Shown in pieces: positions 43,161 to 54,323 of a stretch of 54,323 bases of DNA (its first letter is position 1; every line of letters starts with the position of its first letter). The notes below the pieces were generated by a model that made no database searches, was not told the origin of the DNA, and worked only from the letters and a program-made list of their open reading frames with translations. The DNA is from an uncultured SAR116 cluster alpha proteobacterium (GTDB taxonomy: Bacteria; Pseudomonadota; Alphaproteobacteria; Puniceispirillales; Marisalimonadaceae), in contig CACNEF010000006.1 of the NCBI GenBank assembly GCA_902619485.1, positions 1 through 54,323 on the forward strand, written 5' to 3'. Both the position numbers and the translations under genes were made by a program.

Positions 43161-43409
43161 TTATAAAATATAGTTATTAAAAATGTTATCAAATATTTTT
43201 TTTTCAATCACCCAATAAATCAAAGATGCTGGTATAAACGATATTAAAAAAGAAATAATGACTTTAGTTTTTAAATTAGTTTTATCTGGAGCAGAGTTTG
43301 CCAATCCTTCTTCATGATGCTCAGAAACATTAACACCTATAGGAAGTGAAATAAAAAAAGAAATCATCCAAATCATTAAAAAAACCACTATATATGATAC
43401 TAAACTCAT
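43161..43409 (-). CDS. DUF1467 family small membrane protein
   Basis: This 82-residue protein has two hydrophobic helices (about 5-24 and 51-69) with a conserved polar loop between. The pattern IVVFLMIWMISFFISLPIGVNVSEHHEEGLANSAPDKTNL matches the DUF1467 family, which is found almost only in alphaproteobacteria (first 18 residues shown in other families vary). Function is unknown. It follows rnj by 9 bases, the conserved place of this family. It is useful as a marker that birA-coaX-rnj-DUF1467 is the ancestral downstream part of a nuo operon. Confidence 0.85.
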   Translation of the reverse strand: MSLVSYIVVFLMIWMISFFISLPIGVNVSEHHEEGLANSAPDKTNLKTKVIISFLISFIPASLIYWVIEKKIFDNIFNNYIL

Positions 43410-43418
43410 CTATATTTA

Positions 43419-45074
43419 TTAAACTCTATTGATATGGACGCTTACTGCAGGTCTCTTTAAAAAAGTTGATTTAAATTCACTTCTAATGATCTTTTTAATT
43501 TTGTTAATAATGTCATCATCAGATTTTGATATACTTAACATATTATCATCTATCAAGTTTTCAATTTTTAGAGAAATACTAATTAAAAAATTATTCATAG
43601 TGTTACTATCTGATACTCCTATTTGTGAGATCTGCGGAGGAGTAACTAAATAACCTTCATCATTGATTACAACTGAAACACTTACAAATCCATTCCATAA
43701 TGAATGTCTTCTAACTGTAAATCTCTCATTATTTATAGGAACAATTTCACCAGCATCATAAACATGATTAACAAAATCAATTTTTGAAATCACATTAGGA
43801 GAAGATCCATTTAACTTTATAACATCTCCATTTTTTGGTTTTATAATTTTTGGCACCTGACATTGATGTGCTAGTTCTGCGTGTGCATCTATGTGCTCTC
43901 TTGTTCCATGCACTGGAATAGAAATTTTTGGCTTTATGTACGAGTACATATCCACTAATTCATCTTTTGAAGGATGACCAGAAACATGAACATTTTTGTC
44001 ATTATCTGTAATTATTTCAACACCCATCTCAAGAAACCTCGTTTGAACTTTTAATATAGCATTTTCATTACCTGGTATTTTCCTACTTGAAAAAATTACT
44101 GAATCACCCTTTCTTAATTTAATATATTTGTCAGCATCTCTAGAAATTCTATTTAAAGCTGAATTTGGCTCGCCCTGAGATCCAGTAGAAATTATTAAAA
44201 CGTTAGATCTAGGAATTAAATTAAAGTCATTTACAGATAATAAATCAGGTAAATTATCTAAAATTCCAACCTCTTTTGCCGCATCAATTGCCCTTAAGAG
44301 TGCTCTACCAATAATTAACACTGATCTATCACATTTTTTAGCTATATCTAATAGTGATTTAATTCTACTAATATTGGAAGAAAAACAAGTAACTAGCACT
44401 ATTCCTTTTACATTAGTAATGGTTTCCATCAATCCATTATAAGCAAATTCCTCTGATGGTGTTCTACCCTCAACTAGAGCATTAGTAGAATCACAAACCA
44501 TTGCCAAAATTCCATCTTTTCCTAAAGATCGGAAATCATTTATGTCAATGTTTTCATTTATATTAGAAGAGTTATTCAGTTTCCAATCTCCTGAATGAAA
44601 AATATTACCTGTTTTTGTAGAAATTAAAATTGATACAGGATCAGGAATCGAATGTGAAGTTCTTATAGCTTTTAATTTAAAGGGACCAATTTTAAATATT
44701 TCATTTATATTTAAAGTATTAAATTTAATTTTATCATTTTTGTTATTTTCTTTTAATTTTCTTTTTAAAAGAGCAATGGTAAAAGGTGTACCCCAAATAG
44801 GACAATTTATACTATCTGCAAAATATGGTATTGCACCTATGTGATCTTCATGTCCATGTGTTAAAATTATACCTAAAAATTTGTCTCCTAAAGATTTGAT
44901 GAATTCATAATCTGGCAACAAAACATCAATACCTAAGTCTGTTTCATCAGGAAATGAAATACCAAAATCAACTAGAACCCATTTATCATCATAATGATAT
45001 AAATTTGCATTCATTCCTATTTCTTCAGAGCCACCAACAGGCAAAAATAATAAATCAGATTTATCCCAATGCAT
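43419..45074 (-). CDS. rnj: Ribonuclease J
   Basis: RNase J is a metallo-beta-lactamase/beta-CASP ribonuclease with endo- and 5'-exonuclease activity. Metal ligands lie in LTHGHEDHIG (His73, His75, Asp77, His78), SHSIPD and FHSGDWKLN; beta-CASP motifs include VCDSTNALVEGRTPSE, STGSQGEPNSAL and the C-terminal VHGTREHIDAH. Its 551 residues are normal. It is 21 bases downstream of coaX in the conserved birA-coaX-rnj order of alphaproteobacteria. Confidence 0.95.
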   Translation of the reverse strand: MHWDKSDLLFLPVGGSEEIGMNANLYHYDDKWVLVDFGISFPDETDLGIDVLLPDYEFIKSLGDKFLGIILTHGHEDHIGAIPYFADSINCPIWGTPFTIALLKRKLKENNKNDKIKFNTLNINEIFKIGPFKLKAIRTSHSIPDPVSILISTKTGNIFHSGDWKLNNSSNINENIDINDFRSLGKDGILAMVCDSTNALVEGRTPSEEFAYNGLMETITNVKGIVLVTCFSSNISRIKSLLDIAKKCDRSVLIIGRALLRAIDAAKEVGILDNLPDLLSVNDFNLIPRSNVLIISTGSQGEPNSALNRISRDADKYIKLRKGDSVIFSSRKIPGNENAILKVQTRFLEMGVEIITDNDKNVHVSGHPSKDELVDMYSYIKPKISIPVHGTREHIDAHAELAHQCQVPKIIKPKNGDVIKLNGSSPNVISKIDFVNHVYDAGEIVPINNERFTVRRHSLWNGFVSVSVVINDEGYLVTPPQISQIGVSDSNTMNNFLISISLKIENLIDDNMLSISKSDDDIINKIKKIIRSEFKSTFLKRPAVSVHINRV

Positions 45075-45095
45075 TTTTTTCTTTCAAATAATTAA

Positions 45096-45890
45096 TTAAT
45101 TTTTATTATGTAAATATAACTCTACTAATCCAATCAAAGTTAAATCATCTACAATTACATCAATACTTTTTACCGATTTTTTGAATAAATTACTTAATCC
45201 ACCAGTTGCTACAACTTTATAATCAGAGAATTTATTAACTGATTTTATCTTTTCTATCAAACCCTCAATCATTGATACATACCCCCAAAATATTCCCGAC
45301 TCCATGGCGTTTATAGTATTTTTCCCAATAATGGAAGAGTTCTTATCTATCAAAGGTCTAAGTGATACTTTTGGTAAATTAGCTGTAGCTAAATAAAGAG
45401 CCTCAAGAGATAAATTAACACCAGGGGCAATTATACCTCCATTATAACTACCATTTTTTCCAACAATATCAAAAGTTGTTGCTGTACCAAAATCGATTAT
45501 AATAGCAGGTGAAATTTTTAATTTTTCAGCAGCATATGAGTTAACTAATCTATCAGCGCCTGCTTCTTTTGGATTATCAATATTAACTTTTATCCCCAAA
45601 TCAAGAATATTTTCATTTACAATTAATGCATTAACATTGAAATACTTTTTAATTAAGGATTTTATATTTAAAAGCGTTTCTGGAACAACTGATGCAATAG
45701 ATATTCCAGTAACACTGGTAATATCAAATTTAGATATTTCAAACATTTTTAATAACCAAGGATAGTATAAATCAGCAGTTCTATTAGAGTCGTTGTTAAT
45801 TCTCCAACTTGTCAACTGATTAATTTGATTATTTACAGTATAGAGGGCAAAAACAGTATTTGTATTGCCACAATCAATTGCTAAGATCAT
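45096..45890 (-). CDS. coaX: Type III pantothenate kinase
   Basis: CoaX phosphorylates pantothenate, the first step of coenzyme A synthesis. Motifs are IDCGNTNTVFAL near the N terminus, GADRLVNSYAA, IIDFGTATTFDIVGKNG, GGIIAPGV and VVATGGLSN. Its 264 residues are normal. The start codon overlaps the birA stop by 4 bases. Type III kinases need K+ or NH4+ and are not feedback-inhibited by CoA (family knowledge). Confidence 0.95.
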   Translation of the reverse strand: MILAIDCGNTNTVFALYTVNNQINQLTSWRINNDSNRTADLYYPWLLKMFEISKFDITSVTGISIASVVPETLLNIKSLIKKYFNVNALIVNENILDLGIKVNIDNPKEAGADRLVNSYAAEKLKISPAIIIDFGTATTFDIVGKNGSYNGGIIAPGVNLSLEALYLATANLPKVSLRPLIDKNSSIIGKNTINAMESGIFWGYVSMIEGLIEKIKSVNKFSDYKVVATGGLSNLFKKSVKSIDVIVDDLTLIGLVELYLHNKN

Positions 45891-46627
45891 GATAATTCTT
45901 CATCTGGAAAAAAAAAACTTTCGATAGAATAATATTCTAAATATTCATTGCCAACTTTAATCTTCAAACTCCCATTATCTCCTAGTCCTAAAAAAACTCC
46001 ACTTATATCTACAGATTTAGAATTTAATTTGATAACAATTTTATTATTAATATTATAAATAATTTTATTTATCTTATCTCTAAAAAAATTAAATCCTTTA
46101 TATTCCCAAATAGAATAATTTGTAAAAATTATTTTTAATGTTAGATTTGCGATATATTTAAGAGAAAAATTATTATCAATATGATCATACAATTTAGTAG
46201 TATTCCATTTTGTTTCGTTTTGTGGTGTTTTTAAAATATTTAATCCAATTCCAGCAACAATGAAATCATCAAAAGACTCTAATAAAACACCCGAAATTTT
46301 TCTTTTTTGAACAAGCACATCGTTTGGCCATTTTAATTCAATTTTATCTTTATCAACACCAAGATTAATTAGAGTTTCTAATATTGATAAACCAATTATT
46401 AATGAAAGTTGGTGCCATTTAACTTTACTCATTGTAGGTCTAAAAATTGTAGATAAAAAAAGATTACCTTTCATTGATTCCCAATGATTATTATTTCTAC
46501 CTCTTCCTTTAGTTTGCACATAGGATAAATATGATGTGCCCTCTGGCAATCCTTTTTTTGCATTTATTATGGCTATATCATTTGTACTAGAACAGGTTCG
46601 CAAAATATTGAGATCTAAATATGCCAA
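45887..46627 (-). CDS. birA: Biotin-protein ligase BirA (no DNA-binding domain)
   Basis: This enzyme attaches biotin to the carrier protein of acetyl-CoA carboxylase. It is the short monofunctional form: SSTNDIAI, QTKGRGRNNHWES (GRGR at 41-44), the ATP/biotin segment KWPNDVLVQKRKISGVLLE, and VAGIGLNI. The N-terminal helix-turn-helix of the repressor-type BirA is absent, as usual in alphaproteobacteria. The start is TTG with GAGG about 7 bases upstream. It lies 20 bases downstream of the NuoL-like gene, where it would normally follow nuoN. Confidence 0.93.
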   Translation of the reverse strand: MAYLDLNILRTCSSTNDIAIINAKKGLPEGTSYLSYVQTKGRGRNNNHWESMKGNLFLSTIFRPTMSKVKWHQLSLIIGLSILETLINLGVDKDKIELKWPNDVLVQKRKISGVLLESFDDFIVAGIGLNILKTPQNETKWNTTKLYDHIDNNFSLKYIANLTLKIIFTNYSIWEYKGFNFFRDKINKIIYNINNKIVIKLNSKSVDISGVFLGLGDNGSLKIKVGNEYLEYYSIESFFFPDEELS

Positions 46628-46647
46628 GAATTAACCTCTAAAGTTAC

Positions 46648-48339
46648 CTATCTATTAAAATCATAAGAAGTAAAAGATTTCAGATAATACCTAAATAATT
46701 TCTTATTTTTAAGTCTTAAATTATTTCCTAGCTTTGGGAAGATAAAATAATTCATAAAAGCTAAAAAAATTCCAATATAGCAAACAATATTTCTAATTTC
46801 TAAAAGTTCTTTATTTTTATCAATATTATTATTTAACGAAAAGTTAACATCACCAACTAAAACTAAACGCCACAAGGTTTCACCAAAATTACCCGAGAAT
46901 AAATTATTTAAGTACCAACCTGAAAAAATGATAATAAGAGATAAAATAAATAGAATAAACTTCAAATAGTATGATCCTTCTTCTATCTTGTTATATAAAT
47001 GAATGTTACAATTATTTTGGCCTAAAAATACGACTAAGATAATCTTAAAAGAAATATAACTAATGATGAAAGTATAATAAGAACAATATGTAAAAATAAA
47101 TAAATAATTTTCTTTATTGATTATTAATGATTGGGATAAAAATAATTTATTAGAATAAAATCCAGAAAAATAAGGAATCCCTAACAAAGAAACAAAGCCA
47201 ATTAGAATAAATAAAGAAATGAAAGGACATTTAACAATTAGATTACCCATTTTCCTAATATCTTGTTCATTGTTCAATTTGAATGTAATAATTCCAAAAC
47301 TTAAAGACAAAATTAATAAGGAGGTTATGGATGTAACAAAATGAAACATAACTGCATTATATAATTTTAAACCAATTCCAATTAGTAAAATACAAAATTG
47401 AGAAGAAGCAATATATAAAATCAATTTATTCAATTTATAAGATCGAATTAATAAAATTGAAAACATTAAATTAAAAATCAATCCTAATAATAATAAAATA
47501 TTTGAATAATTTAAACTTAGATGGGTTATACTTAAGAAGCGTAAAATGAAATAAAGACCAATAGGTAAATATAACCCATATAAAACTAGTGAGTTAGAAC
47601 TTGTATTCAGGCTTAACAAATCATAACTTGAATTTGAAATATAAAATTGACGACATCTTAACAAAAATGAAAAAATCAAAATAAATGTTATTATTTCAAA
47701 ATTACTAAAAGTTTTGTTCAAAATAGTTGTATTATTTTCTATTGTATCAAAACTTTCAAATATCACATCAAAATTTATTGAGTTTGAAAAAGTATAAATA
47801 AAATAGAGACTTAAAAAAAAGCATAGATCAGAAACTCTGTTTTCAAAAAAAATATTACTATTATCAACCTTATTTTTGAACATGTTAGATATCAAATAAG
47901 AAGATATAATTACTAAATACCAACCTAAAAAAAACTGAATTAAATTGTTTGATGTGACTAGAACTAAAACACTAAAAATTGATAGTGAGAGAAAACTATT
48001 TATTTTAAAATTTTTTAAATGGTTTTTGGTTAAATTTGTTGAATAAACCGCCAACAATAATCCAATAAAAGTTATCAAAATTATTAAGCTAGAAACAAAC
48101 AAATCAAATCTTAAAGACCAATCTATTAGAAGATTATCAATCTTTATTATTCTACAGAAAAATAATGGAAGATCTTTATCTAAATTTAAAATTTTAAAAT
48201 AAATATATAAACCTAAACTGAAGTTCAGAATACATAGAAAATAATGTAAAGCATATATACTATTAGTTTTAACTTTTTGACTAAAAAACTGAAATAATAA
48301 AAAGCTTAATAATGGGAAAATAAATAATAAGATTTCCAT
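46648..48339 (-). CDS. Degenerate NuoL-like antiporter subunit, function unknown
   Basis: This 563-residue polytopic membrane protein has about 13-14 hydrophobic helices. NuoL ancestry shows in SLRFDLFVSSLI, FFLGWYLVIISSYLI, ENRVSDLCFFLSL, RSYKLNKLILYIASSQF, MFHFVTSITSLLILSL, IRKMGNL and GIPYFSGFYSNKLFL. Key residues are changed. The Glu of GWEGVG is Tyr141. The Lys of GKSAQ is shifted to Arg228, with the following HTWLPDAMEGPTPVSALIH motif almost wholly replaced. The Lys after HLMTHAFF is Leu341. The Lys-Asp of SKDEIL is Asn397-Lys398. The protein ends near the NKWYFDELYD position, so the lateral helix and last membrane helix are absent. It is intact, with AAGGG 8 bases before the ATG, and sits between nqrF and birA. 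It is unlikely to pump protons. Confidence 0.75.
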   Translation of the reverse strand: MEILLFIFPLLSFLLFQFFSQKVKTNSIYALHYFLCILNFSLGLYIYFKILNLDKDLPLFFCRIIKIDNLLIDWSLRFDLFVSSLIILITFIGLLLAVYSTNLTKNHLKNFKINSFLSLSIFSVLVLVTSNNLIQFFLGWYLVIISSYLISNMFKNKVDNSNIFFENRVSDLCFFLSLYFIYTFSNSINFDVIFESFDTIENNTTILNKTFSNFEIITFILIFSFLLRCRQFYISNSSYDLLSLNTSSNSLVLYGLYLPIGLYFILRFLSITHLSLNYSNILLLLGLIFNLMFSILLIRSYKLNKLILYIASSQFCILLIGIGLKLYNAVMFHFVTSITSLLILSLSFGIITFKLNNEQDIRKMGNLIVKCPFISLFILIGFVSLLGIPYFSGFYSNKLFLSQSLIINKENYLFIFTYCSYYTFIISYISFKIILVVFLGQNNCNIHLYNKIEEGSYYLKFILFILSLIIIFSGWYLNNLFSGNFGETLWRLVLVGDVNFSLNNNIDKNKELLEIRNIVCYIGIFLAFMNYFIFPKLGNNLRLKNKKLFRYYLKSFTSYDFNR

Positions 48340-48429
48340 GTTTAGTGCCCTTATTTTATAATAAGATATAATATAAAAACATGAAAGTAACTTAAAAAAA
48401 TAGTTTAATTACTTGATTAATAAATAAGT
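48340..48429 (-). promoter_or_regulatory. Spacer between nqrF and the NuoL-like gene
   Basis: Ninety bases with no gene, the largest gap in this part of the window. It separates the tightly packed nqrA-F operon from the NuoL-like gene. On the minus strand it contains TATTATA-type hexamers and a ribosome site AAGGG before the NuoL-like ATG. There is no GC hairpin, so readthrough from nqr is possible. An independent promoter for the NuoL-like/birA/coaX/rnj block is plausible but not proven. Confidence 0.28.
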
Positions 48430-49650
48430 TTACCCACCAAAATCATCAAGCATAATATCTTCTCTGTCAACACCTAGATCAAGTAGCATATTTATAACTG
48501 ACTGGTTCATCATAGGTGGACCACACATGTAATACTCGCAATCTTCAGGAGCAGGATGGTCCTTAAGATATTGCTCATATAAAACATTATGAATAAATCC
48601 AGTAAGACCCTTCCATTTATCTTCAGGCATTGCGTCAGATAAAGCCACATGCCAACTGAAGTTAGAATTCTCTTTAGCTAGCTTATTAAAATCTTCTACA
48701 TAAAACATCTCTTTTTTAGACCTTGCACCATACCAAAAGGTAACTTTACGTTTTGTCTTAATTCTATTAAATTGATCAAAAAGGTGACTCCTCATAGGTG
48801 CCATACCAGCCCCACCTCCAATAAAAACCATTTCCTTTTCTGTTTCCCTAGCAAAAAACTCACCGAAGGGGCCAGAAATCACCACCTCATCTCCGGGTCT
48901 TAAATTGAATATATATGAAGACATCTTCCCAGCAGGAATTCCTGTTGAGCCTGGGGGCGGTGATGCTATTCTGACATTAAGCATGACAATTCCTTTTTCA
49001 TCAGGACAATTTGCCATAGAATATGCTCTTTCAATTGGCTCATTCGATTCAGCATTAAAATCCCATATTTTAAATCTATCCCAATCTTCATGATATTCTT
49101 TAGCAACATCAAAATCTTTATATGATAATGAATAACTTGGAGCTTCAATTTGTATATATCCACCAGCTCTAAAGTTAACATCCTCTCCTTCTGGAAGTTC
49201 TAATATTAATTCTTTTATAAAAGTAGCAACATTATCATTGCTTCTAACTTTACATCTCCATTTTTTAACACCAAAAACTTCTTCTGGTACTTCAATTTCC
49301 ATGTCTTGCTTAACTGCAACTTGACATGATAAACGGTCTCCACAGGAAGCTTCTCTTTTATTTATATGACTTTCTTCAGTAGGTAAAATAGCTCCACCAC
49401 CTGAGTGAACTTTAACTCGACATTGAGCACATGTTCCTCCTCCCCCACATGCTGAAGGAACAAAGAGCTTTTCTGCTGCAAGTGTTTGTAATAATTTGCC
49501 TCCAGCTGGAACACTTACCTTTTTTTCTCCGTTAATAATTATATTTACATCACCAGATGAAACTAATTTACTCCTAGCAAAAATAATAATAGAAACTAAT
49601 GTAAGTACTATCATTGTAAAAAGAGTTATTCCTAGAACAAATGTATCCAT
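48430..49650 (-). CDS. nqrF: Na+-NQR subunit F (NADH- and FAD-binding)
   Basis: NqrF is the electron-input subunit of the Na+-translocating NADH:quinone reductase. One N-terminal membrane helix (about 5-24), then a plant-type 2Fe-2S domain with Cys68, Cys74, Cys77 and Cys109, a FAD domain with RAYSMAN, and a NADH domain with [14 protein letters not shown] and [10 protein letters not shown]. Its 406 residues match the family. It is the last gene of the operon. The genes nqrM and apbE, needed for Fe and FMN insertion and often found downstream, are not present here. Confidence 0.96.
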
Positions 49651-49661
49651 TTCTTAATCCT

Positions 49662-50270
49662 TTATAATTTAACGCCAGAAAAACACATAAAAGCCATCGC
49701 CATAAGCCCAGCAGTTATAAAAGTAATTCCTAGTCCTTGTAAGCCATCAGGTATATCACTATACTTTAGCTTCTCTCTCACACCAGCCATAGTTGCAATT
49801 GCTAAGGCCCAACCAAATCCTGAAGCCAACCCATATGTTGTAGCTTCAGCAAAATTATAATCTCTTTCTACCATAAATAATGAACCTCCTAAGATTGCAC
49901 AATTAACTGTAATTAGGGGAAGAAATATTCCAAGTGCATTATATAATGGTGGAAAATACTTGTCTAATATCATCTCTAAAATTTGGACTAAGGCAGCTAT
50001 AACTCCGATGTAAGAAATAAGGCCCAAAAAAGTAAGATCAATATCTGGGAATCCTGCCCAAGCTAAGGCTCCAGGTTTTAATAAATAAGAAAGTATAATA
50101 TTATTTGCTGGAACAGTTATAGATTGAACAATCATAACCGAAATTCCTAAGCCAATGGCTGTTGATATTTTTTTAGACACAGCAATAAAAGTACACATCC
50201 CTAAAAAAAAGGATAAAGCTAGATTTTCTACAAAAATAGCTTTTACAGCTAATGAAATCAAACCTTCCAT
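49662..50270 (-). CDS. nqrE: Na+-NQR subunit E
   Basis: This integral membrane subunit has six predicted helices. With NqrD it holds an intramembrane iron centre; the ligand cysteines are visible as Cys26 in FFLGMCTF and Cys124 in VNCAILGG, matching the family pattern. The 202 residues are normal. RnfA is homologous, but the operon context with nqrABCDF makes NqrE certain. The ATG overlaps the nqrD stop by one base. Confidence 0.96.
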
Positions 50271-50923
50271 TAATGTTCCTCTAGTGTTTGTATTTTATAT
50301 TCACGAGCCTCAACTTGAGACTTCTTCCATGTTCTAACACCCCAAATAATAAACCCAATGATAAAAAAAGCTGAGGGAGGAAGAAGTAACAAACCGTTGG
50401 GAACATACCACCCACCATTACTCACAGGTTCAAAAATCATTATTCCAAATAAAGAGCCAGAACCAAAAAGCTCGCGAATTACTCCAACACTCATTAATAA
50501 AAGACTATATCCTAGACCATTTCCAACACCATCTACAAATGACTCAAATGGCTTGTTTTTCATTGCAAAAGCTTCTGCTCTTCCCATAACAATACAATTT
50601 GTAATAATTAAGCCTACAAAAACTGATAATGTTTTGGAAATCTCATAAGCATATGCTTTTATTATTTGATCAACTAGAATTACTAATGATGCGATTATAA
50701 CCATCTGAACAATAATCCTAATTGAATTTGGTATATAATGCCTTAAAAATGAAATAAATAAAGATGAGAAACCACAAACAGCAATTACAGCTAATGACAT
50801 AACAAAAGCAACATTCAAAGAAGATGTTACTGCTAAAGCAGAACAAATTCCTAAAACTTGAAGAGTTATTGGGTTATTATCTACCAAAGGATCAGTAAGT
50901 AATTGTTTCCTAGTTTGAGACAT
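50270..50923 (-). CDS. nqrD: Na+-NQR subunit D
   Basis: This integral membrane subunit is homologous to NqrE and RnfE. Iron-centre cysteines are Cys27 in VLGICSAL and Cys110 in [14 protein letters not shown]. Six hydrophobic segments are visible, and a polar tail ends in a glutamate-rich stretch. Its 217 residues are normal. Its ATG overlaps the nqrC stop by one base. Confidence 0.96.
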
Positions 50924-51714
50924 TAAGCCGCTCCATTTTGCAAATTTGTTAGAAACTTTTTAAAACCAGCCTCACCCATCCAAAATTTTACTAAATTATC
51001 AACACCATTTGAAGTAAGGGTGGCTCCAGCTAAAGCATCAATATGATGTTCTTTGTACTTTTGAGTTTTGGCGACTGTAATCATCAGTTCACCACTATCA
51101 TTGTTAATTTTCTTTCCTTTCCATTGAGCTTTCCATTTGGGATTATCAACTTCAGCCCCTAAGCCAGGTGTTTCTGCATGTTGGTAAAATTGAAGACCAA
51201 AAATATCATTACCATTTTTTTCTAAAGCTATAAAACCGTATAATGTTGACCACAAACCATATCCATGTATTGGAAGTATAACCTTGTCTAATGATCCATC
51301 TTCTTTTTTGAGCAGATAGACAGTTGCAAAGTTGGTTCTCCTTCCTATTGAAGCTGGATCTTCCTTTAATGAGATACTTAATTGCGGATCTTGTGCAGCT
51401 TTTTTATCATCAAAAGTTAATGGATCAAAACGATTTGTAAATTTACCCTGATTTAAGTCAACTACTATTGGTTCGAATGAAGAAAATGATTTTTCAACAT
51501 CTATACCTTCATAATAAAGTCCAGCGACTTGAAGAATATTTTTTTGTTTATCAATTGCTTTATTAACTTCCTGAACTTCTTTTAAATTTACAGCAGCAAA
51601 AGAAACAACCATGGAACAAACAAGACATAAAGTTATTGCAACAAATAAAGTCTTAGTCATCCCATCAACAGGCATGTTTTTAAAATTAGTTAAAATGTTA
51701 TTGAGTTTGGACAT
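50923..51714 (-). CDS. nqrC: Na+-NQR subunit C (covalent FMN)
   Basis: NqrC carries FMN covalently bound to threonine. One N-terminal membrane helix (about 21-42) is followed by a periplasmic FMN domain with [28 protein letters not shown] and the flavinylation site [12 protein letters not shown], Thr232. The family motif is normally SGAT; here it is AGAT. The ATG at 51714 has AAGGA about 7 bases upstream, gives 263 residues, and overlaps nqrB by 17 bases. A longer reading from 51762 would add 16 residues coded inside nqrB and is rejected. Confidence 0.95.
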
Positions 51715-52915
51715 TAAATTTTGTCCTTCTCTTAATATTTGCCATAATAACAAAATGATCAATTAATGGGGCAAATATATTTCCAAATAAAATTGCTAAC
51801 ATCATACCTTCAGGAAATGCAGGGTTTAATACCCTTATCATTACAACCATAAAACCAATCAATGCGCCATATATGTATCGTCCAAGATTAGTATGACTGC
51901 CAGACACAGGTTCAGTTACCATAAAAACTAACCCAAAAGCATAACTTCCAATAACTAGGTGCCAATACCAAGGCATACTAAACATTGGATTTGTGTCTGA
52001 ACCTACCCAATTAAGAAATGAAGAAAAAATGATCATTCCCAAAAGACATCCAACAACCATTCTATAGTTTGCAATTTTTGTTAAAAGAAGAAAAACTAAA
52101 CCAATAGCGCATGCAAGTGTAGACGTTTCACCAAGTGAACCTTGAATTGTTCCGAAAAAAGCATCTGCCCAAGTTATACCATAATTGCTTAAACTTTCAT
52201 ATCCTTCGGCAGCAGCTATTCCAAGAGAAGTAGCTCCTGAATATCCATCAACTGGTGTCCAGATTGAGTCACCTGACATATAAGCAGGGTATGCAAAATA
52301 TAAGAATGCACGACCTGTAAGTGCCGGATTAAGAAAGTTCTTGCCAGTTCCACCGAAAACCTCTTTCCCAACTACAACACCAAAGGCTATACCAAGAGCA
52401 ACCTGCCATAAAGGAGTAGATGCTGGCAATGTTAAAGCAAATAACATAGAAGAGACTAAAAAACCTTCATTTACTTCATGACCTCTAATCGTAGCAAATG
52501 TTACTTCACAGATACCTCCAGCTATTAAAGTAGTTAAATAAATTGGTAAAAAATACAATAATCCGTGAAAAATATTCGACACTAAACTTTCAGGACTAAT
52601 TCCTAAGCCAATAAATTGAAGCAACGATATACGCCATCCTGATTGCGCTTCAATACCTAAAGTAGCCAAAGCACTATTAGTCTGTAAACCAGTGTTGTAA
52701 AGTGCCCATAATACGCATGGTATAGTAGAAATGACAACATAGGTCATTACCCTTTTCATATCTACAAAGCTTCTAGCGTGGGGAGCAACTTTTGTAACTG
52801 TGTTACTTGTAAAAAATATAGTCTCAACCATTTCAAAAATAGGATAATATTTTTCGTATTTACCACCTTTTTCAAAATGAGGTTCTATAGAATGGAAGTA
52901 ATTTCTTAATGACAT
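51698..52915 (-). CDS. nqrB: Na+-NQR subunit B (covalent FMN, Na+ path)
   Basis: NqrB is the large membrane subunit that contains the Na+ channel, a covalent FMN and riboflavin. About ten hydrophobic helices are visible. The flavinylation motif SGAT is intact, with Thr229 in DGYSGATSLG. Also conserved are ARSFVDMKRVM near the N terminus, GKNFLNPALTGRAFLYFAYP and the end VMVIRVLNPAFPEGMMLAILFGN. Its 405 residues are normal. It follows nqrA by 3 bases and overlaps nqrC by 17 bases. Confidence 0.96.
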   Translation of the reverse strand: MSLRNYFHSIEPHFEKGGKYEKYYPIFEMVETIFFTSNTVTKVAPHARSFVDMKRVMTYVVISTIPCVLWALYNTGLQTNSALATLGIEAQSGWRISLLQFIGLGISPESLVSNIFHGLLYFLPIYLTTLIAGGICEVTFATIRGHEVNEGFLVSSMLFALTLPASTPLWQVALGIAFGVVVGKEVFGGTGKNFLNPALTGRAFLYFAYPAYMSGDSIWTPVDGYSGATSLGIAAAEGYESLSNYGITWADAFFGTIQGSLGETSTLACAIGLVFLLLTKIANYRMVVGCLLGMIIFSSFLNWVGSDTNPMFSMPWYWHLVIGSYAFGLVFMVTEPVSGSHTNLGRYIYGALIGFMVVMIRVLNPAFPEGMMLAILFGNIFAPLIDHFVIMANIKRRTKFNVQTQ

Positions 52916-52918
52916 TAA

Positions 52919-54262
52919 TTAGCCTTCTTTTTCAATTTTTGTTAAACTGTCTCTAAGAGCAGTACCATATTCATATTTTGCAGGGCAAGCAAAAGTACAC
53001 AATGCTATATCTTCTTCATCAAGTTCAAGCGCACCTAATGATTGAGCAACGTCAGTGTCCATTACCAAAAGGGATCTAAGTAATTGTGTTGGCAAAAAAT
53101 CCTGTGGCATTAAAGTTTCAAAAACACCAGTTGGAACCATTGCTCTTCTTCCTCCATTTAAATTAGAGGTGAGATTAAATAATTTAAAAAAACTAAAAGC
53201 AGATAAAAGGACAGGCATAACTGAATATTTATGAGGTTGCGGTTTAATCCAACCAAAAAAATGTTTTTCTTTATCTTCTTTTATAATTGTAATTTGCCTA
53301 GAATATTTTCCTAAATAAGCCATGTCACCAGTCGCATGGAATCCTGAAAGAATAGATCCTGAAATTATTCTACAATCCTCTACTTTATTATATTCTCCTT
53401 CTAGAATATCAACAAGGGAAGCACCAACAACAGTATTTACTAATCTAGGATTATTGGATAAAGGACCTGAAATTGAAATTGTCCTATTAATATTGATATA
53501 GCCATTCAGAAATAATTTACCAATTGCAATAACATCTTGATAATTAATTGACCATACAGTCTTGTTTGCATTTGGTGGATCTAAAAAATGCATATGAGTA
53601 CCACTCAAACCAGCAGGATGTGGTCCACCAAATTCATATGTATCAAAACCATTAACCCTAATTTCACTATCTTCTCTTATGCATGTAAAAACATTACCAT
53701 TAGTCAAAAGTGAAATATGTTTCACACCTTCTTCAAATGCACTTAGATCATTCATAATAATGATATCTGCATCTGGGCTAAGTGGTTCTGTATCCATAGC
53801 AGTTATAAAAATTGAAGATGGTTCAGATTGACTGTAAGGAATTTTTGAATATGGCCTTGTTAAAAAAGAAGTCCATAAGCCACTGCTAAACAAGCATTTT
53901 TTTATGAACTCTTTTTTTGATTTTTCTTTAGAATGATGTTTTGTTATTGAAACACCCTTATCTTCTAAATTTTCAATTTCAATAACAACACTTAGTAATG
54001 CTCTTTTTTCTCCCCTATTGATTTCTTTAACAAAACCTTTACAGGGAGAGACGAAAAGAACCTCTGGATTGTCCTTATGACAAAAAAGAGGTGAGCCTCG
54101 TTCAACTTTATCACCTACGTTAACAAACATTTTAGGTTTAAGACCATTGTAATCTGGACCTAAAATAGCTAAAGATTTTGGGATTTTAGTGTCAACTATA
54201 ACTTGTTTTGGTGCGCCTGAAACAGGAATATTCAGACCTTTCTTAAGATTAAATTTATACAT
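52919..54262 (-). CDS. nqrA: Na+-NQR subunit A
   Basis: NqrA is the peripheral cytosolic subunit involved in quinone interaction. Its 447 residues match the family (about 446). Conserved parts are KKGLNIPVSGAPKQ at the N terminus, PLFCHKDNPEVLFVSPCKGFVKEINRG, SIFITAMDTEPLSPD, FGGPHPAGLSGTHMHFLDPP and the C-terminal MVPTGVFETLMPQDFLPT with CTFACPAKYEYG. It is the first gene of nqrABCDEF. A GAGGT lies rather far (about 13 bases) before the ATG. The upstream 61 bases to the window end probably contain the operon promoter. Confidence 0.96.
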   Translation of the reverse strand: MYKFNLKKGLNIPVSGAPKQVIVDTKIPKSLAILGPDYNGLKPKMFVNVGDKVERGSPLFCHKDNPEVLFVSPCKGFVKEINRGEKRALLSVVIEIENLEDKGVSITKHHSKEKSKKEFIKKCLFSSGLWTSFLTRPYSKIPYSQSEPSSIFITAMDTEPLSPDADIIIMNDLSAFEEGVKHISLLTNGNVFTCIREDSEIRVNGFDTYEFGGPHPAGLSGTHMHFLDPPNANKTVWSINYQDVIAIGKLFLNGYININRTISISGPLSNNPRLVNTVVGASLVDILEGEYNKVEDCRIISGSILSGFHATGDMAYLGKYSRQITIIKEDKEKHFFGWIKPQPHKYSVMPVLLSAFSFFKLFNLTSNLNGGRRAMVPTGVFETLMPQDFLPTQLLRSLLVMDTDVAQSLGALELDEEDIALCTFACPAKYEYGTALRDSLTKIEKEG

Positions 54263-54323
54263 TAAAAGTAATATTTACCTCTATTTAAAAAAATAATTTA
54301 ATATAGTTAAAACAAGTTTATAT
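54263..54323 (-). promoter_or_regulatory. Upstream region of nqrA (cut by window end)
   Basis: These last 61 bases hold no gene in the window and precede the nqr operon on the minus strand. The sequence is AT-only for long stretches and includes the distant GAGGT of nqrA. A promoter here is expected, but the region is cut, so nothing specific can be named. Confidence 0.25.

Follow-up and report, generated by a model that had tools for sequence, protein, structure and literature searches.

The window (the whole stretch of 54,323 nucleotides analysed here) carries a gene for a NuoL-derived membrane protein that lies, apart from any nuo operon, between the genes of a Na+-pumping NADH dehydrogenase and a housekeeping cluster. 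We refer to it as the orphan. The nqr genes, including nqrF, lie upstream of it, and birA, coaX, the RNase J gene rnj and a DUF1467 gene lie downstream, all in the same direction. The features, with codon coordinates computed from the ORF start at 48339, are as follows.

43161..46627, minus strand: birA, coaX, rnj and DUF1467, the genes found after nuoN in G052 and G006, two complex I keepers
46648..48339, minus strand: the orphan NuoL-derived membrane protein gene, 563 aa
46984..47016, minus strand: codons 442-452, the orphan-specific stretch NNCNIHLYNKI, recognised by column conservation
47656..47658, minus strand: codon of Arg228, standing where GKSAQ has its Lys; Arg in 16/16 full homologues
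47827..47838, minus strand: codons 168-171, the retained NRV(S)D motif, with Arg168 and Asp171 invariant in 16/16
48340..48429, minus strand: the 90-bp gap between nqrF and the orphan
48430..54262, minus strand: nqrF, nqrE, nqrD, nqrC, nqrB and nqrA, the operon in place of nuo

The orphan starts with ATG and runs for 563 codons without an internal stop, so the intact frame described in the earlier note is real. nqrF is named by its match to TIGR01941, and the names nqrA to nqrE are presumed from ORF order. A scan of positions 46500-48800, which includes the nqrF-orphan gap, returned no terminator-like site. The G+C content of the orphan is 0.21-0.23 along its length, versus about 0.33 in nqr. 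The window contig stops 61 bp upstream of nqrA (54262-54323), and 7 of the 26 nqrF contigs of the genus (G019, G020, G024, G028, G033, G044 and G045) reach no more than about 540 bp past the downstream end of nqrF; both edges of the nqr operon seem to be points where assemblies break.

Several lines of evidence place the orphan in the NuoL family. It matches TIGR01974 (NuoL) with an E value of 3.7e-60 and 204.5 bits, below the curated cut-off of 407.5, and Pfam Proton_antipo_M with an E value of 1.2e-24. Its closest PDB matches are NuoL/ND5 chains of complex I, and a profile-profile alignment of 7 orphans with 10 canonical NuoL proteins spans 548 columns at 26% identity (probability 100%). The kinship with NuoL that had been read from the letters is thus confirmed across the antiporter core, though at a score under the curated TIGR01974 cut-off. 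AlphaFold2 models built on 7-row and then 8-row alignments were unusable (mean pLDDT 40.7 and 41.4). A scan of viral contigs for NuoL returned one locus. Among 385 genomes of the class, one besides the window's genome passed an E value of 1e-56; that match, at 25% identity, is a 700-aa open frame that is itself NuoL-like.

The named related loci all belong to the SAR116 cluster (7/7), as does the window's genome, which is not the AEGEAN-169/HIMB59-like host that had been supposed. We examined 136 genomes of the order, including the window's genus (g1) and a second NQR genus (g3). NqrF scores over its cut-off in 28 of the 136 (26 in g1 and both of g3). NuoH occurs in 75/136 of the order genomes, with one occurrence among the 40 of g1 (G022 alone) and none in the two of g3, many of these genomes being incomplete. 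For the window's genome (78% complete), a search that covered NuoH and PF00361 did not recover the rest of complex I. Among the PF00361 matches listed, strong complex I type matches in g1 come from G022 only; the remaining PF00361 genes listed for the genus lie in other places and, judged by length and gene order, look Mrp-like. The G022 bin is 5% contaminated and its nuoLMN genes lie beside a second, divergent birA and coaX; we therefore treat its complex I set as foreign, and these nuo genes are probably bin contamination. In this NQR genome, contigs C68 and C96 hold NuoH and the nuoLMN cluster of complex I type, the cluster having a birA and coaX of its own. A PF00361 match with two in-frame TGA codons (G049:C57:821-1651) was also seen in a 100%-complete bin, and its contig is possibly foreign.

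Gene order suggests where the orphan came from. The complex I keepers annotated here (G052 and G006) have the order nuoL-nuoM-nuoN-birA-coaX-rnj. Orphan-bearing NQR genomes have nqrF-orphan-birA-coaX-rnj, and nqrF-orphan-birA is found at 16/16 full loci. The simplest history that fits these positions is that nqr replaced nuo in place and one nuo gene was left behind. From gene position, rather than from a phylogeny of NuoL, we infer that the orphan descended vertically from the lineage's own nuoL.

The residues expected of a proton pump were compared between 16 full orphan copies (contig-edge pieces left out) and 13 canonical NuoL proteins, 12 from other genera of the order and one from the G022 bin, several of them mutually close. 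In the window protein, canonical E141 is replaced by Tyr141, K233 by Arg228, K346 by Leu341 and K402-D403 by Asn397-Lys398; the HTWLPDAMEGP block is gone, and the C-terminus falls where KWYFDE would start. All of these calls had been made correctly in the earlier note, and the alignment shows no shifted register in which the key Lys or Glu residues reappear. Across the 16 copies, the TM5 Glu is always absent (Tyr in 9, Gln in 6, His in 1) and the TM7 Lys is always Arg. Canonical H258, H342 and K346 are lost in 16/16, the last mostly to Leu (13 copies, plus Phe, Val and Thr), and the distal Asp, D403, is likewise lost in all (Lys 7, Gln 7, Thr, Glu). No copy has the HTWLPDAMEGP block. Every copy also ends near the KWYFDE motif, as the earlier note had concluded for the window protein from a stop at the start of NKWYFDELYD, and thereby lacks the last TM helix and the lateral helix, which we take to be what holds NuoL to complex I.

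The losses are extensive and yet incomplete. Arg168, Asp171 and Lys370 are unchanged in 16/16 orphans, nine copies have His and seven have Tyr at canonical H338, and at K402, the distal Lys, five have Lys, ten Asn and one His. The statement that the charged residues of the antiporter are gone therefore holds for most of them but not for those three invariant ones; the central Lys is an Arg in every copy, and the distal Lys persists in five. The TM5 Glu and TM7 Lys correspond to E144 and K229 of Escherichia coli (numbering from PMC4938563, mapped by motif), and the distal Lys-Asp exit to K399 and D400, whose role is taken from PMC9271201. The latter source describes Lys229 and Asp178 of complex I as an ion pair that opens and closes. 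An Arg at the site equivalent to Lys229 could keep such a pair and yet resist deprotonation.

The orphan also has a conservation pattern of its own. With thresholds of 12/13 canonical NuoL proteins and 15/16 orphans, 53 columns keep the NuoL residue in the orphans, 26 are fixed for another residue (e.g., K233>R228, G174>S170 and P244>Y239), 207 are conserved in canonical NuoL only and 62 in the orphan only. The last group includes most of NNCNIHLYNKI at 442-452, where N442, I446, H447 and K451 are found in 16/16 orphans and N443, C444, Y449, N450 and I452 in at least 15/16.

Most residues of the classical input, centre and exit are gone, so proton pumping of the NuoL type is improbable. The orphan might still be a single-subunit channel or carrier for Na+ or H+, its chemistry altered, and some conduction is conceivable because Arg168, Asp171 and Lys370 are kept in all copies, His338 in nine and the distal Lys in five. 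The orphan genomes run a Na+ pump. According to PMC4938563, moreover, NuoL can replace MrpA in Bacillus subtilis, and its E144Q and K229A variants behaved only slightly differently in an mrpA deletion strain. Changes in helix VIII had clearer effects there, however, and the H, T, M and V of the HAATMV segment of that helix are replaced in the window protein; the loss of canonical K346 and D403 from all 16 copies also speaks against conduction. We regard this alternative as rather unlikely, although it is the strongest of the competing explanations.

The orphan could instead be a relic that is drifting toward loss and is open by chance. The 16 full-length homologues are 559-565 aa long, share 35-89% identity and are all free of stops. 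In 200 runs of random mutation (50 at each of four divergence levels), no copy stayed stop-free. Estimates of omega (iqtree2, GY+F3X4) for the orphan are 0.126 for 14 sequences (G034 and G030, in both of which birA is cut, were left out). Two clades gave 0.129 and 0.161, and two close subsets 0.19 and 0.23. The close sets are more trustworthy than the overall value, because synonymous sites are saturated at depth. In the two close subsets, omega=1 is rejected at a cost of 103 and 59 lnL units; between G015 and G027, a dN of 0.044 compares with a dS of 0.227. Corresponding values are 0.09-0.14 for birA, 0.009-0.014 for nqrF and 0.018-0.036 for canonical NuoL (3 to 5 sequences of genus g4, with or without one g2 genome). 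The orphan lies well above canonical NuoL, so constraint on it is real but several-fold looser.

Fast evolution, elevated omega and repeated loss are what a relic would show, and the elevated omega and low G+C also fit relaxed constraint. Against this stand the 16/16 intact ORFs, omega far below 1, and 78 columns that are invariant although identity among the orphans goes down to 35%. These data speak strongly against a relic, which we consider very improbable. The earlier argument that a full frame sets the gene apart from a decaying pseudogene is accordingly upheld; a dN/dS near 1 and frequent stops in relatives, which had been named as grounds for doubting it, were not seen (0.13-0.23, and no stop in any full copy). 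A contig-edge match in G023 carries a TAG that, by its coordinates, is the end of a 93-aa frame there.

The neighbouring birA (window 45887-46627) evolves fast as well. Within the genus its identity to the window copy is 54-86%, a range taken without the G022 copy, which is likely foreign, and without a 26-residue piece in G034, and its protein distance is on average about 1.8 times that of rnj. G039 (L091) and its flanking-gene sister G042 (support 100) are only 48% identical in the orphan and 63% in birA, versus 99% in nqrF and 95% in glyA. This pattern suggests either that the orphan-birA segment was replaced by recombination or that it went through a local burst of change.

The distribution of the orphan bears on its relationship to Na+-NQR. 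The junction can be judged in 26 g1 genomes, and the orphan is present in 24 of them, as 16 full copies and as contig-edge pieces in G019, G020, G023, G024, G031, G033, G044 and G045 (those in G019 and G024 being only 12 and about 8 recognisable residues). In the other two, G021 and G049, nqrF is joined directly to birA, as it is in G009 and G010 of g3, so the gene is dispensable. In a tree of flanking genes, with G034 and G030 placed on nqrF alone, the sister of g3 is the orphan-bearing pair G022/G023 (support 89), and G021 groups with G049 in a clade apart (support 100); some deep nodes have a support of only 55. These separate placements imply at least two losses of the orphan. No compensation for the losses was found.

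A subunit or maturation factor dedicated to Na+-NQR, and obligate for it, would be expected to follow the enzyme. The orphan does lie directly downstream of nqrF, in the same direction and with no terminator-like site in the scanned region, and nqrF is over its cut-off in 23 of the 24 orphan-bearing genomes; in the remaining one, G031, the genome is 68% complete and the orphan a contig-edge fragment. The reverse does not hold, as four genomes have nqr without it, and the expectation that the orphan and nqr would occur together fails in that direction, with at least two losses. NqrM was detected in 18/24 orphan-bearing genomes (all except G019, G020, G027, G031, G033 and G039) and in 4/4 orphan-free NQR genomes, and the idea that the orphan replaces NqrM was rejected on these counts. 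NqrF is also far more constrained (omega 0.009) than the orphan (0.126). Since NQR genomes without the orphan exist and NqrM occurs in both groups, NQR seems not to need it, and an obligate partnership is unlikely, less probable than ion conduction.

A putative ApbE-like gene lies divergently beside nqrA in all six loci read, of which four have the orphan and two lack it. Loss of succinate dehydrogenase was considered as a correlate and rejected, as sdhA is over its cut-off in 32/40 g1 genomes, among them the orphan-free G021 and G049, and in G009 of g3. In the window's genome sdhA (G000:C1:427849-429602) is in two overlapping pieces, each with a stop, which reflects either an assembly error or a frameshift; a match over the cut-off and spanning all 568 positions is found in 44/58 family genomes. 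One SAR116 genus has been reported to lack SDH (PMC8547437).

We therefore favour, as the probable explanation, an exapted NuoL that no longer pumps and has taken on a non-pumping role in the membrane, left when nqr displaced nuo. The lineage's own nuoL would have stayed in place upstream of birA while nqrABCDEF took over from the other genes of the nuo operon. The TM5 Glu, H258, H342, K346, the lateral helix and the distal Asp would have gone before the sampled species split, and the distal Lys would have gone in most lineages. A poorly titratable Arg would have become fixed at the central Lys site with Asp171 retained, and the classical proton path is therefore probably closed. Purifying selection has since held the product, which would be a non-pumping multi-helix membrane protein. 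Its most likely mode of action would be contact within the inner membrane, with the orphan serving as an accessory and non-essential partner or regulator of another membrane complex, for which NQR is the first candidate by its position. That the gene is intact and under selection in most species, after losing most pump residues, points to a new job; this part of the earlier proposal survives. A scaffold role, also named there, is conceivable, whereas an obligate partnership with NQR is not supported. A more specific version is speculative and improbable as a whole. Here a pump-dead scaffold or regulator would work beside the Na+-NQR that took the place of complex I, with a fixed Arg-Asp pair substituting for the proton switch and NNCxIHxYNKI as a new contact motif, making a hybrid of two unrelated NADH dehydrogenases.

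The exapted NuoL, if so understood, is an example from nature of how selection can keep a proton-pump subunit, without most of its pumping residues, after its complex vanished, and this in an abundant marine group. The copies are a natural set of variants for what NuoL-type proteins do without proton transfer, and they raise the concrete question of how, within a lineage, Na+-NQR takes over from complex I in place.

Among known systems, the orphan is closest to NuoL (ND5, TIGR01974), with which it is homologous over about 550 residues, shares the NRVGD motif, Lys370 and many Gly, Pro and Trp residues, and has in common a position upstream of birA; it differs in that its genus is without NuoH in 39/40 genomes. 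MrpA, a Na+/H+ antiporter subunit, belongs to the same superfamily and is weakly similar, but the orphan lies outside any Mrp operon, with nqrF and birA as its neighbours. DabB/MpsA is also a NuoL-type membrane protein used without complex I, and the orphan might likewise be the membrane half of a CO2-hydrating or membrane-potential system. Used outside complex I and NuoL-like, DabB2 is said to lack ion-pair motifs regulating directional pumping (PMC13144422), some such motifs being missing from the orphan too. However, the same source has DabB2 keeping its proton-transfer residues, most of which the orphan has lost. DabA (PF10070), sought as a partner, was found in 0/58 family genomes, many of them incomplete (control genomes were positive in 2/14), which counts against a DabA-dependent form. 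We consider a DabB-like role extremely unlikely.

The nearest precedent is in SAR116 itself. Roda-Garcia et al. 2021 (PMC8547437) reported that nqr replaced nuo in two SAR116 genera, with nuoL immediately beside the nqr operon, and their nuoL next to nqr in genera LGC2-C and LGC2-D is very probably the same gene as the orphan. A literature search at the level of titles and abstract openings recognised no further reports of a SAR116 nuoL adjacent to nqr. The arrangement is already in print, and the suggestion of an undescribed system is unproven. The section of that paper on nuoL contains no analysis of residues, selection or loss; to the known position of nuoL beside nqr, the present analysis adds the claims on residues and selection, in numbers.
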